IMG/VR virus record: IMGVR_UViG_3300046680_000306 | Span: 1-25,443 of that record | Direction: 5' to 3' (one strand) | DNA from: a virus | Length of the DNA stretch: 25,443 bases | Shown: positions 12,438 to 25,443 of the stretch, piece after piece | Layout: the number at the start of each line of letters is the position of its first letter | Numbering within the stretch: the stretch's first letter is position 1 | Notes under the pieces: generated by a model | Database searches by the model: none | The model's input: only the letters and a program-made list of their open reading frames with translations | What the model was told of the DNA's origin: nothing | Position numbers and translations under genes: made by a program

Positions 12438-13537
12438 TTTCCGGCCTTCGTGTTTGCGATGTAGTCGCGAATAACCTTCGCCGCCATTTCGCGTTGCTGA
12501 TCGAGGTTCCAGGGGGGCGCGCCTAGCTTAGTGGCCTCTGCCGCAACCACAGCCGCGGCGCTATCGAGATCAGCCTGTGTGAGGATCAGGTTCGTTATCG
12601 CCTGAGCGGGCGTGATCCCGCCAGCGACCTGTGTCGAAAGGCCGGTGAGGACTTGAGTGATCGCCTGAACCGCAGTCGGGTTGGAGATCAGCGAGCCCAC
12701 GAGGCTCATCAACGCGGGACTGCCTAGGACTATCTGAAGAAGTGCTGGAAAGAGTGCACCCATTGAAGGCACCGTTGCAGTTGGCGGCGGCGTCGGTACA
12801 GGCGTCGGCGCGGGGGTTGGAGAGAGCGGAGGAGGATGGTCCGGCAGCGGCGGGACCGGCGTAGGTGTCGGGGTCGGTTGCGAAGGCTTAGGCGTGGGAG
12901 CCGGCGGCGGCGCGGGCCCGAACGTGATCGAGCTATCAAGCCCGGCCATGTAGCGCAGCATTCCAGCGCAGCCGAGTTGAGGATCCCAAAAGGTAGGATC
13001 CCAATTATGATCTGAAACGTACTTGCCGGCCTGTTGTTCTGATGTTCCCGCCCAAATATACGGGCTGGCAATCCCGCGATCGGCGTATCCCTCGCCGTTC
13101 AGACGCTCCAAAAATGTGAGCGTTCCGCCGGCGCTCCAATCGTCCCACTCATTGATCTTTTGGACGTCAATCAGGGCATCTAGGGCGCCGCGGAAGAACG
13201 CGCCACGCAAAGGCTTATCGGTAGGATGATCTAAGAATGGGCCGCGGTTAGGCGGGACGATCGTGGTTTTGTGGCCGAGCGGTTGACCATTGCCGAGGTA
13301 GGAATTGCAGAGCCCGAGATTGGCATCGTGCTCACGCTGATCGGTGACGGCAACGAGGCCCCAAGGGATCGGCTTGCCGGTGATCTCCTGAACGCCCTTC
13401 GCGATCTCCTGATACTGCGCCTTATGGGCGATCAGGGCCTTGGATACCGTCTCAAACTCCGCGACCTTGTTCGACGCGAACCGCATCGCCGCCCACCGGC
13501 GTTGATTGGCATCGATCAGATGGAGAATGTTCGCCAT
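12434..13537 (-). CDS. endolysin: lysozyme-family domain, Pro-rich linker and hydrophobic C-terminal domain
   Basis: A 367-residue protein. Residues 10-205 match the phage 'lysozyme family protein' type (COG5526-like): WGLVAVTDQREHDAN (Glu in REHD is the likely catalytic acid), NRGPFLDHP, DDWSAGGTLTFLERLNGEGY, GIASPYIWAGTS and PQLGCAGMLRYM. Residues about 209-262 are a Pro/Thr linker (PAPPPAPTPKPSQPTPTPTP). The C-terminal part contains a hydrophobic stretch (FPALLQIVLGSPALMSLVGS) and may bind membrane or be an unusual anchor. It should cleave peptidoglycan at lysis. No signal peptide. The gene precedes the holin-like gene with a four-base overlap. Confidence 0.75.
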   Translation of the reverse strand: MANILHLIDANQRRWAAMRFASNKVAEFETVSKALIAHKAQYQEIAKGVQEITGKPIPWGLVAVTDQREHDANLGLCNSYLGNGQPLGHKTTIVPPNRGPFLDHPTDKPLRGAFFRGALDALIDVQKINEWDDWSAGGTLTFLERLNGEGYADRGIASPYIWAGTSEQQAGKYVSDHNWDPTFWDPQLGCAGMLRYMAGLDSSITFGPAPPPAPTPKPSQPTPTPTPVPPLPDHPPPLSPTPAPTPVPTPPPTATVPSMGALFPALLQIVLGSPALMSLVGSLISNPTAVQAITQVLTGLSTQVAGGITPAQAITNLILTQADLDSAAAVVAAEATKLGAPPWNLDQQREMAAKVIRDYIANTKAGK

Positions 13538-13581
13538 ATCGGGGGGTTATGGGCCGATCCACAACCCGCGCAACGCACTGG

Positions 13582-21970: not shown

Positions 21971-24238
21971 TTACACCGTGGCTATTGTCCCGATCTCCGC
22001 TATCAATAGCGGGCCGGGCGTATCTTTGATTAGACAGACGCGCGGATCGTGAGCTCGCCCTTTAGGACGCCACATTTCCGTTTCCTCGCGCAACGGCGGA
22101 GGCTTTGTCGGATCATCATCTTGGTTCCAAGTTGGGATGCGTCGATTGTTCATAATCGTACCGAGCGCCGGTCCCCCTGGACGCAGCTTGCCGGCAAACA
22201 ATCGCGCGAGCAGAAATCCGGTTGAATTCATAAAGTAGACTTCAAAACGCGAGACGCGCCGCGGCGCCATACGTTGACCCACATCTTGACCGGACGGTGC
22301 GATCGGGATCCAAGGCTCGAGCGTTGCGGTCCAAGTCTGCCCGCCAATGAGCGTAATCGCCGTAAGATCCTCGCCGGCATTGAATTGCGGAATGATGAAC
22401 CCGTTCGCATCGATCTGATAGGTGCCCATCATGCGCGTGCCCTGATCCATCAGATCAACGCTGCCACCAGGCAACCACCAGAACGGACCTTTGCCGCCGG
22501 GCGGTAAGAGTGCAGTCGGGACCACGTTCACAAACATTGCGCCATCGAGATAGATCGTATCATCGAGCTTCGACACGACCGGCACCGGCGTAATGTTGTT
22601 GGGCGTGTAGGTTGTCGAGAAGATCACATCAGCGCCTTGCGCGGACAACCATTTGACATTTCCGGGACTGATCCAAGGCAACCACCCGACCGATCCTTTA
22701 ATCTGTCCGCTTTCAATCTCATACTTGCCGACCGCAATCGTGCCGTCTGCATTTAGAATGTAAGCGTAGCGTTCAGGGAACGTGCTCTCCGCCGATGGTC
22801 CCGCGATTGCGAGCGGCCCGGTGAACAAGTGCGTATTCATATCCGCGATGTCGCGGCTCTCATAGGGGCGGCTGTAGGATCCGGTCGCCACGATCGCCAT
22901 CGGCCGAAGATTGCCAGCGTTGATATAAACAATCACTTCCTGAATTGCGCGCGGCTGCACAGCGGATGCGCCGTCGCGGCTTACCAAGTTGAATGCTACG
23001 GATCCTGGCTTGAGCGGATTAGTGACCGAGATCGGGATGTAGTAGATCCCGTTCGTCGTGAAAACAAATTCGTTGCTGTCCGCTCCTGGTTCTACAAAAA
23101 GGATCTGGCCCTTTCCAGGCGCGAGCTCAAACATAGCCGACGTCGGAAGCTGCAATGTATCAATGTGAAGATCAGTCGGGTCACTGATCGCCGACCATGC
23201 AATTCCGTTCGGCACAGACGGAAAATTCGAGAAGATCAAACGGTTCTGATCGACACGCACCGACGCTGGAAAGCCGCGCAGCGTGTTCATCACTTCATCA
23301 TCCCAAATAAAAATCGGTTGGGGCGGGAGTGAGGAAATTGCAGAGAATGTCGTATTGCCGTTCGGACCAACCAAAATGTCGCCGGCGTTGAACGCAGCAA
23401 ATCCGCCGAGCGTTTGCGGCAAAGGTTGAAAGATTAGCAGACCAGGGGTGAAACTTGTAACAACGGCGCGAGCTCCGCTGCTCGAGCCAATGATCACGTC
23501 ACCAACATTAAAACTTCCATTCAGTGCAACCGGATTGACTTCCAGCCCGAGCGCCGGAGCTACTTGAACCGTCGCCGTCGCATGGGCCCCATCAGTAACT
23601 CCTGTAATCAGGAATTGCGCCGTGCCAGCGTAGAGGATGTACGTTCCGATCCACGCCGCCGTCATTCCAATGCTTGAGGAGAATGCCAGGGTGATTATTC
23701 CGCTTGCACCGGACGGCGCCAGCGTGATGTTCTTTGGAGAGATCCGATAGAACGCCGTCCGTTTCTCACCGGATCTGATCGCTTCAAAGTACGGAGTTAC
23801 GGACCAAGTCGAGACTTGCGACACGCCGTCCCACGTCAAGACTTGCGGACGCTGTCCGGGGAATGTGATGTAGACGGACAGCCCCATAATATCGAACACG
23901 ACTTGATTGAACGTCGCGAGGGACCATAGGAACCCGGCTTGCGTGAATACTTGCGCGCCCGCCGCGTTGAAAACTTTCAGCGTGCCAGCGCCGAATGCCA
24001 GATAGAAGATATTCCCCGGCGACATCAGCACTTCGGAAATGCGATCGGCCGTTGGCGGAAGGAATATCGCGCGGCGCCCGGGCCGGTTCTGCACGCCCTT
24101 AGACGCTAGGATCCGCCAGTTTGAACATTGCCGCGTGCCCGCCTTGCGCCGCGGATCGCCGTCATTGCGCTTGATCGACGGATCTAGCTCACCGGCTGAG
24201 AAATCGTTTTGTCCGCCTGCTATTTTCCCGGCTGGCAT
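21971..24238 (-). CDS. tail tubular protein B (gp12-like)
   Basis: A 755-residue tail protein. The N-terminal GQNDFSAGELDPSIKRNDGD, CSNWRILASKGVQNRPGR is the typical opening of podoviral tail tube or hub proteins ('FSAGE..P....D...Y..G...C.N.....G...RPG'). The rest is beta-rich. Length is close to T7 gp12 (794 residues). It forms the tail nozzle with tail tubular protein A. The ribosome site AGGGG lies about six bases before the ATG at 24238. It is separated from tail tubular protein A only by an HNH gene. Confidence 0.75.
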   Translation of the reverse strand: MPAGKIAGGQNDFSAGELDPSIKRNDGDPRRKAGTRQCSNWRILASKGVQNRPGRRAIFLPPTADRISEVLMSPGNIFYLAFGAGTLKVFNAAGAQVFTQAGFLWSLATFNQVVFDIMGLSVYITFPGQRPQVLTWDGVSQVSTWSVTPYFEAIRSGEKRTAFYRISPKNITLAPSGASGIITLAFSSSIGMTAAWIGTYILYAGTAQFLITGVTDGAHATATVQVAPALGLEVNPVALNGSFNVGDVIIGSSSGARAVVTSFTPGLLIFQPLPQTLGGFAAFNAGDILVGPNGNTTFSAISSLPPQPIFIWDDEVMNTLRGFPASVRVDQNRLIFSNFPSVPNGIAWSAISDPTDLHIDTLQLPTSAMFELAPGKGQILFVEPGADSNEFVFTTNGIYYIPISVTNPLKPGSVAFNLVSRDGASAVQPRAIQEVIVYINAGNLRPMAIVATGSYSRPYESRDIADMNTHLFTGPLAIAGPSAESTFPERYAYILNADGTIAVGKYEIESGQIKGSVGWLPWISPGNVKWLSAQGADVIFSTTYTPNNITPVPVVSKLDDTIYLDGAMFVNVVPTALLPPGGKGPFWWLPGGSVDLMDQGTRMMGTYQIDANGFIIPQFNAGEDLTAITLIGGQTWTATLEPWIPIAPSGQDVGQRMAPRRVSRFEVYFMNSTGFLLARLFAGKLRPGGPALGTIMNNRRIPTWNQDDDPTKPPPLREETEMWRPKGRAHDPRVCLIKDTPGPLLIAEIGTIATV

Positions 24239-24240
24239 TG

Positions 24241-24663
24241 TTAGCCCCTGCGGGCGAGAACGTGTCGAAACACGTTCAACACATAATCCTCACCCCAATT
24301 ATGGAGAGCGACATTGATCGAATACAAAATCATTCGGCAATTCGCTTCGGTGTAGTGACTACCCGGAGCCACGCGATCGACGGATGGAGCATTCGGCTTG
24401 TGTCCGCCGCGCTCAAAGTCAAATCGCAAACCAGATAGCTCGCACACTCCCGCTTTCAACCTCGCCTCAAACCATTCGAGCGATAGATCAAACTCAACAC
24501 CCTTGCGCTTCGCCTCATCCTTCACGCCTTGGCGCATCACGCGCGCCCGCATGTCAAACGAGTTTCTATGTCGCCGACGCTTGCGAACATCGCGCGCTCG
24601 CACGCGCGCTGCCCATTCGGGATCGCGCTCCTCGAGTTTAACGATGGGAATATAGGTTCTCAC
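24241..24663 (-). CDS. HNH homing endonuclease between the tail tubular genes
   Basis: A 140-residue HNH-type enzyme: ARVMRQGVKDEAKRKGVEFD, LSLEWFEARLKAGVCELSGL, then NAPSVDRVAPGSHYTEANCR and MILYSINVALHNWGEDYVL. The pattern C-x-LSG-L ... PS-x-DR ... Y-x-x-NCR ... N-x-A is that of HNH endonucleases common in Rhizobiales phages. The GTG at 24663 overlaps the preceding stop by four bases (GTGA), so I prefer it to the GTG at 24687. The HNH gene interrupts two structural genes normally adjacent in T7-like phages, as freestanding homing enzymes do. Confidence 0.75.
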   Translation of the reverse strand: MRTYIPIVKLEERDPEWAARVRARDVRKRRRHRNSFDMRARVMRQGVKDEAKRKGVEFDLSLEWFEARLKAGVCELSGLRFDFERGGHKPNAPSVDRVAPGSHYTEANCRMILYSINVALHNWGEDYVLNVFRHVLARRG

Positions 24664-25355
24664 GCGGGGCTTCCCGTCCCACCCCACCCGGTAGGCACGG
24701 CCGGATACGGGCGGCGAACGCGGCGCGATGCGGAAATGCGATAGTTAAATGGAGCGCGCTTGGGTTGCTCCTGATCGGCGCGCGTGACCGCCTCCTGCAC
24801 AAGCGCCATTCCCTTTTTTTCTTCTATGTCGCTGCGCTGAGGATCTTCATGCAGTCCGGAGTAAATGCCGGCGCGAACGAAATAGTAGAGCGCGGTCGCA
24901 AACGTGCGCGACATGCGTTGGAAATTGTCGGTGGCGTCTCCAAGCGGATCGCTCGAGACGTATTTCATGGTCATCGGGCCCGGCACCACTCCGGGAGGGA
25001 TAGCAATGCCGGGCGCGACGCCCGTCGCGTTGAGCTCGATATGCCCACCGACGATTTGATAGACGACCGGGAGATCGTTGATCCGCACCCAAACGACGTG
25101 AATGCAGTCCGGCGGCTTGTCGTAACGGGTGTCGAACTGATCATCCTCGGGAACGGTAGGCGATGGATTTAGAAGCTGGATCCGCGTGATCGCCTTCCAA
25201 TCGAACTTTTCATACATGTATTCGATTGCGTGCTCATAGGCGTCGCTCGCGGTATTCCACTCATCGGATCCATCGTTCGCCACGTTCACGGTGTTGTCGC
25301 CGCAAAGCGATAGCGCCTGGTTTATCAGCCCCAATTTATCAAGTGGCCAGGTAAT
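24660..25355 (-). CDS. tail tubular protein A (gp11-like), probable ATT start
   Basis: A 231-residue gp11-like tail tubular protein A. Family features: INQALSLCGDN near the N-terminus, DAYEHAIEYMYEKFDWKAIT, PPDCIHVVWVR, YQIVGGHIELN, MTMKYVSSDPLGD and FATALYYFVRAG. No ATG or GTG is available at the right place. A TTG at 25334 lacks a ribosome site, whereas AGGAGGTG (25367-25360) lies five bases ahead of an in-frame ATT at 25355, giving an N-terminus (M/I)TWPLDKLGLINQAL that fits proteins of this kind. The frame stays open to the window edge but has no other normal start. It attaches below the portal in the virion. Confidence 0.75.
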   Translation of the reverse strand: MTWPLDKLGLINQALSLCGDNTVNVANDGSDEWNTASDAYEHAIEYMYEKFDWKAITRIQLLNPSPTVPEDDQFDTRYDKPPDCIHVVWVRINDLPVVYQIVGGHIELNATGVAPGIAIPPGVVPGPMTMKYVSSDPLGDATDNFQRMSRTFATALYYFVRAGIYSGLHEDPQRSDIEEKKGMALVQEAVTRADQEQPKRAPFNYRISASRRVRRPYPAVPTGWGGTGSPA

Positions 25356-25443
25356 TTGACACCTCCTGTTTTGCTCGACGTGTGATCCAAGCGCGACGGA
25401 GGAACTCAGGATTACGCTTCTGACCTTTAAGAGCTCCCGGATG
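25339..25443 (-). CDS. C-terminal end of an upstream late gene, truncated by the window
   Basis: An open frame running in from the window edge and ending TGA at 25339-25341, 34 codons: basic, with PGALKGQKRNPEFLRRAWIT and RRAKQEVSNYLAT. It overlaps the proposed ATT start of the tail tubular gene by 17 bases and carries that gene's ribosome site. The part visible is too short to identify. Confidence 0.4.
   Translation of the reverse strand, partial: HPGALKGQKRNPEFLRRAWITRRAKQEVSNYLAT
25360..25367 (-). promoter_or_regulatory. full-consensus Shine-Dalgarno site deciding an ATT start
   Basis: AGGAGGTG, complementary to eight bases of the 16S rRNA 3' end, sits five bases before ATT at 25355-25353 on the minus strand. 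It is the strongest ribosome site in the late operon and no ATG, GTG or TTG lies within its reach in the tail tubular frame. Confidence 0.65.

Follow-up and report, generated by a model that had tools for sequence, protein, structure and literature searches.

A probable ATT start codon behind a perfect Shine-Dalgarno sequence in the gp11-type tail adaptor gene of a metagenomic phage contig

On the minus strand of the window, a gene at 24660–25355 encodes a T7 gp11-type tail adaptor, i.e., tail tubular protein A; we propose that it is initiated at an ATT codon (25355–25353), a reading to which we give a probability of roughly 60%. The window is the whole stretch of DNA analysed here, a linear fragment of 25,443 bases that makes up the complete IMG/VR record. 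The same probability is given to the explanation as a whole, namely that gp11 would initiate at this ATT following replacement of the DNA upstream of it, depending on a Shine-Dalgarno (SD) sequence and possibly on coupling with an upstream reading frame. The position of the start, taken by itself, appears close to certain from comparison with related phages. Natural AUU starts are few, and they are found mostly in regulatory chromosomal genes.

The gene runs from ATT to TGA and encodes 231 amino acids. The earlier note on this DNA had named its product tail tubular protein A from the sequence alone, and both profile and fold agree that it is a T7 gp11-type tail adaptor. Among the PHROG profiles, it matches phrog_394 (tail protein, E 2e-14), as do all 15 members of the homolog set, and phrog_9239 (tail tubular protein, E 0.003), matched by 11 of the 15, while the gp11 profile matches the solved connector of phage Carin 1 (8CK1 chain E, E 5e-11). 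A structure model built from 15 sequences, an earlier one from 8 sequences having been poor, has a pLDDT of 78, and in fold it agrees with KP32 tail tubular protein A (5MU4) at E 1e-4 and T7 gp11 (7BOX) at E 4e-4, with global TM-scores of only 0.3–0.4. Foldseek searches with this model returned 8CK1, 9EFK, 5MU4, and 7BOX, all at E ≤ 4e-4, which points to a helical bundle plus a beta domain; the “INQAL helix” of the earlier note corresponds to residues 7–17 of the model.

Moving inwards from the right end, the minus strand carries gp11, an endonuclease VII/HNH-like gene (24241–24663; phrog_3322, E 1e-23), the gene for a gp12-type tail tubular protein B (21971–24238; phrog_376, E 2e-24; 89% identical to its counterpart in the relative L001), and internal virion proteins. 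Matches to phrog_376, phrog_418, and phrog_342 downstream of gp11 identify these neighbours as the gp12-type nozzle and internal virion proteins. Fold and gp11–gp12 order are thus the same as for T7 gp11, KP32 tail tubular protein A, and the Carin-1 connector, whose genes are, as far as is known, ordinarily initiated, whereas the window gene has an unusual start codon. The endonuclease gene begins with a GTG that overlaps the gp11 stop codon (GTGA); it has no counterpart between gp11 and gp12 in L001, L002, and L055, and no relatives of it were found in the viral contigs. The Rfam search of the window returned no RNA family, and hence no sign of an intron. The RNA polymerase profile PF00940 had no match in ten contigs, and neither had its control. 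The search of genome contigs for gp11 homologs found none, and one viral contig (L056:1997–2991), unlike all others, has no gp11-like ORF directly upstream of its gp12 homolog, so that the gene may be elsewhere or missing.

Across the gp11 start, the minus strand reads CAAAACAGGAGGTGTCAAATTACCTGGCCACTTGATAAATTGGGGCTGATAAACCAG. The SD sequence AGGAGGTG (25367–25360, minus strand) matches the 16S rRNA tail at all 8 bases and, as the earlier note had seen, it is perfect; it is also unique in the window on both strands. It is followed by TCAA and then by the ATT, a gap of four bases (six from AGGAGG) and not of five as previously counted. Judged from the base composition, this 8-mer would occur by chance at any of five suitable spacings with a probability of ∼1.3e-4. 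The gp11 frame then reads ATT ACC TGG CCA CTT GAT AAA TTG, i.e., (I)TWPLDKL, and it is open to the contig end, with ATG, GTG, and TTG all absent upstream of the TTG at 25334–25332 (minus strand), which encodes Leu8 and is the first conventional start codon in frame. Pairing with the anti-SD reaches −11.6 kcal/mol for the ATT versus −1.5 kcal/mol at best for the TTG, in line with the previous statement that the latter has no ribosome site. The SD at the ATT is stronger than those of all 65 ATG-initiated ORFs scored in the window and its relatives, the best of which reaches −10.8 kcal/mol with most far weaker; the gp11 ATG of L001 has almost no SD (about −1.7 kcal/mol, scored over a slightly different window from the ATT). 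These comparisons, including that with L001, use the energies only, the gap-to-start values being unreliable as the pairing ran to the edge of the scored window. A strong and well-placed SD, the context expected of a natural AUU-initiated gene, precedes the ATT at 25355–25353.

The closest relative, L001, with an 88% identical protein, has an ATG (L001:1313–1315) exactly at the ATT codon (MTWPLDKLGLINQAL; L001 sequence at the start, ATGACTTGGCCCCTCGACAAATTG), which answers the homolog alignment that the earlier note had suggested as a check. Over the whole gene, the window and L001 differ by 80 silent versus 27 amino-acid-changing codons, while the six codons between ATT and TTG (25352–25335, minus strand) hold four silent differences and no replacement. 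Four random changes in those 18 bases would leave TWPLDK intact in ∼0.1% of trials (P about 0.0006–0.0013); the segment has therefore been under protein-level selection since the window phage and L001 diverged, which places the start ahead of it. ATG is the first codon in each of the 14 other complete homologs, and in 13 it coincides with the ATT position or lies one to three codons upstream; in all 14 the ATG is followed by this N-terminal segment, complete or in part, and even the distant ones (41–56% identical in the matched segments) begin with MSFxWPLxK, MAAFEWPLxK, MFEWPVDK, and similar sequences. The ATT, whose base is given as in the contig consensus, thus occupies a conserved start position, aligned with the ATG of L001 and one to three codons from that of 12 others. 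Taken together, the L001 ATG, the silent TWPLDK differences, and the homolog N-termini place the start with high confidence at 25355–25353 rather than at the TTG, as had been supposed. A search with the pattern TWPLDKLG matched L001 only, so there is no second copy with ATT. One homolog (L018:2998) starts with MFDKL, three codons inside the start of the others, and has no WP, so the precise N-terminus can vary.

If the position is accepted, what must be weighed is whether the base is correct. A true G would give an ordinary ATG at the same place, the T having arisen as an error of consensus or assembly close to the end of the contig, and we consider this a serious, although less probable, reading. 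The metagenomic contig, known from a single assembly, ends 89–91 bases beyond the ATT; this location makes a consensus error a serious rival, and an ATG is present in every homolog. Moreover, switches from ATG to AUU are very rare in bacteria, 1 in 61,358 reconstructed AUG starts (PMC5622118), i.e., about as rare as the single-base errors expected per base, which makes an error a fair competitor. On the other hand, the 231-codon frame is otherwise intact and its ratio of silent to replacement differences is normal, so the contig is not generally error-ridden. The SD at the ATT, far above those of the ATG-started relatives, is what would be expected of a real weak start, and it tips the balance towards a genuine ATT. 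Weak start codons tend to have stronger SDs, an inverse relation that Belinky and co-workers call compensation (PMC5622118), and the contrast between L001, whose ATG is preceded by hardly any SD, and the window, whose ATT has the strongest one scored, resembles it; for one gene in one contig, this resemblance is suggestive.

The SD is contained in a second reading frame, present with its 3′ end only (HPGALKGQKRNPEFLRRAWITRRAKQEVSNYLAT; 25443–25339, minus strand), which is in a different phase, has 34 residues in the contig, and runs off its end. This upstream frame stops at TGA (25341–25339), 11 bases past the ATT, with a TAA immediately after (TGATAA); it overlaps gp11 by 17 bases, and TGATAA falls inside gp11 codons 5–7. 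Both stops are created by differences from L001 that leave the gp11 protein unchanged (CTC to CTT, GAC to GAT). Given this arrangement, gp11 could instead start at the TTG by re-initiation after the upstream stop (TGATAAATTG), with the TWPLDK codons no longer translated. Four bases separate the end of the upstream frame from the TTG, as is common in coupling, and the N-termini of the distant homolog L018 and of the solved connector 8CK1_E are nearer to this point. Nonetheless, we judge it improbable: the absence of an SD at the TTG and the purely silent differences of the preceding codons speak against it, and such a start would remove Lys7, which is invariant in 15 of 15 homologs and kept in both solved relatives.

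Upstream of the start codon, the window and L001 have no similarity, and an element shared by the relatives is missing. In 13 of 15 homologs this element, the exact 9-mer GTGCGTTGC, precedes the gp11 ATG by 38–42 bases, measured start to start; it is absent at the expected place in the window, despite 88 upstream bases being present. The similarity to the relatives breaks off right at the start codon, a short way from the contig end, and the conserved element is lacking; the last 88 bases of the contig might therefore be a chimera foreign to the phage, with the SD and ATT context artificial. This is about as improbable as the TTG start, since a random join would be unlikely to put a unique, perfect 8-base SD four bases before a start, and the noncoding DNA upstream of gp11 also varies among the accepted relatives. 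Least probable by far is that gp11 has no separate start and is made as a fusion, through frameshifting or read-through from the upstream frame. Frameshifting can be promoted by a nearby upstream SD-like sequence, and no stop codon closes the gp11 frame before the contig end, but all homologs have a separate ATG-started gene and the gp11-frame codons upstream of the start are not conserved with L001.

Searches with the 34 residues of the upstream frame gave no match in Pfam, PHROGs, NCBIfam, or the PDB, and none that was credible in phages or plasmids; likewise, two degenerate DNA patterns for this frame had no match in the viral contigs. Matches in Caulobacter phages that bear the name “tail tubular protein A” run antisense to that gene and were dismissed as fortuitous. 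The idea that the frame is the NUMOD3 tail of a homing endonuclease was also discarded, with the NUMOD3 model finding nothing and no support from the databases; thus, in these last 34 residues, no endonuclease domain was detected by Pfam, PHROG, NCBIfam, PDB, or NUMOD3 searches. Third-position GC is 44% in the upstream frame, counted over only 34 codons, versus 63–69% for gp11 and gp12, in keeping with a foreign origin.

The 9-mer occurs elsewhere in this phage group, with 33 sites in 11 contigs (one to five per contig), 32 of them on the gp11-sense strand, compared to a single match for the reversed-pattern control. The element stands at L001:1273, L003:2932, L004:2928, L005:2934, L006:2934, L007:2934, L009:2948, L010:2953, L011:2948, L015:2415, L019:170, L055:2261, and L057:2195, as well as one in the window (13570–13578, minus strand), 41 bases before an ATG at 13537; L018 also lacks the element before gp11. 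Several sites are 38–42 bases before an ATG, others are inside genes, and their flanks are not conserved. In L001 (L001:1–1313), gp11 is preceded by a divergently oriented gene, a tail-fibre-like ORF on the other strand, and a perfect inverted repeat of 9 bases, GCAACGCAC...GTGCGTTGC, lies between them. Candidate roles for the element are a late promoter, a leader element, and a one-strand nick site; in phage tf, 14 nicks fall at a site of 9 bases that is present on one strand only (PMC3517423).

For the preferred reading, i.e., initiation at the ATT, the following sequence of events may be envisaged. The DNA just upstream of gp11 would have been replaced in the window lineage, probably when another gene was inserted there, perhaps a mobile endonuclease akin to the one just downstream of gp11, and during this replacement the ATG of the relatives would have turned into ATT. 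As the upstream frame has no database match, the insertion is inferred; the endonuclease gene at the gp11–gp12 junction, absent from L001, L002, and L055, indicates that the region has received at least one insertion. Initiation would now depend on the perfect 8-base SD within the final stretch of the upstream frame, with initiator tRNA placing fMet at the AUU. Since the SD is inside the upstream frame, which stops 11 bases past the ATT, translational coupling is possible: ribosomes finishing that frame would stop 11–14 bases past the ATT and could re-initiate there. In T4-like phages, free-standing homing endonucleases displace existing transcription starts, and their overlapping stop and start codons suggest translational coupling (PMC2988022). 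That a foreign gene inserted before an essential virion gene removed both its ATG and its upstream element, with rescue by AUU, a nested SD, and coupling that would bind the intruder to an essential phage protein, is a tentative proposal, and one that we regard as rather doubtful in its full form.

AUU initiation has few precedents to which gp11 can be compared. Nivinskas and co-workers are said to have described, in 1992, an internal AUU start in T4 gene 26, which would be, as proposed for gp11, AUU initiation in a phage structural gene, with the difference that the T4 codon makes a shorter internal product, while the gp11 ATT would be the sole start. In infC, the gene for IF3, AUU occupies the annotated start position in Escherichia coli and other bacteria (PMC5472188, PMC5559785), as ATT does in gp11; that of infC is conserved and autoregulated by IF3, whereas the gp11 ATT occurs in one phage contig, in a structural gene whose relatives use ATG. 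Because the closest relatives do not have the ATT, no conserved regulatory use is visible. In Staphylococcus aureus cvfC1, reporter output from an AUU preceded by an extended SD is about 10% of that from AUG (PMC13009471). The AUU of cvfC1, like the gp11 ATT, stands behind an unusually long SD, but it is conserved, chromosomal, and measured by ribosome profiling and reporters, while the gp11 ATT is known from sequence alone. The suggestion that the ATT is a low-efficiency start that limits the amount of gp11 is speculative, as a weak codon with a strong SD and an ATG with almost no SD could have a similar net output.

With these reservations, gp11 is a plausible though unproven candidate for the few known natural ATT starts. 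A gene caller restricted to ATG, GTG, and TTG would make the protein seven residues too short and overlook the case. If the reading is true, a virion gene initiated at AUU, with a nearest relative that uses ATG without an SD, would be a clean natural example of compensation between start codon and SD.
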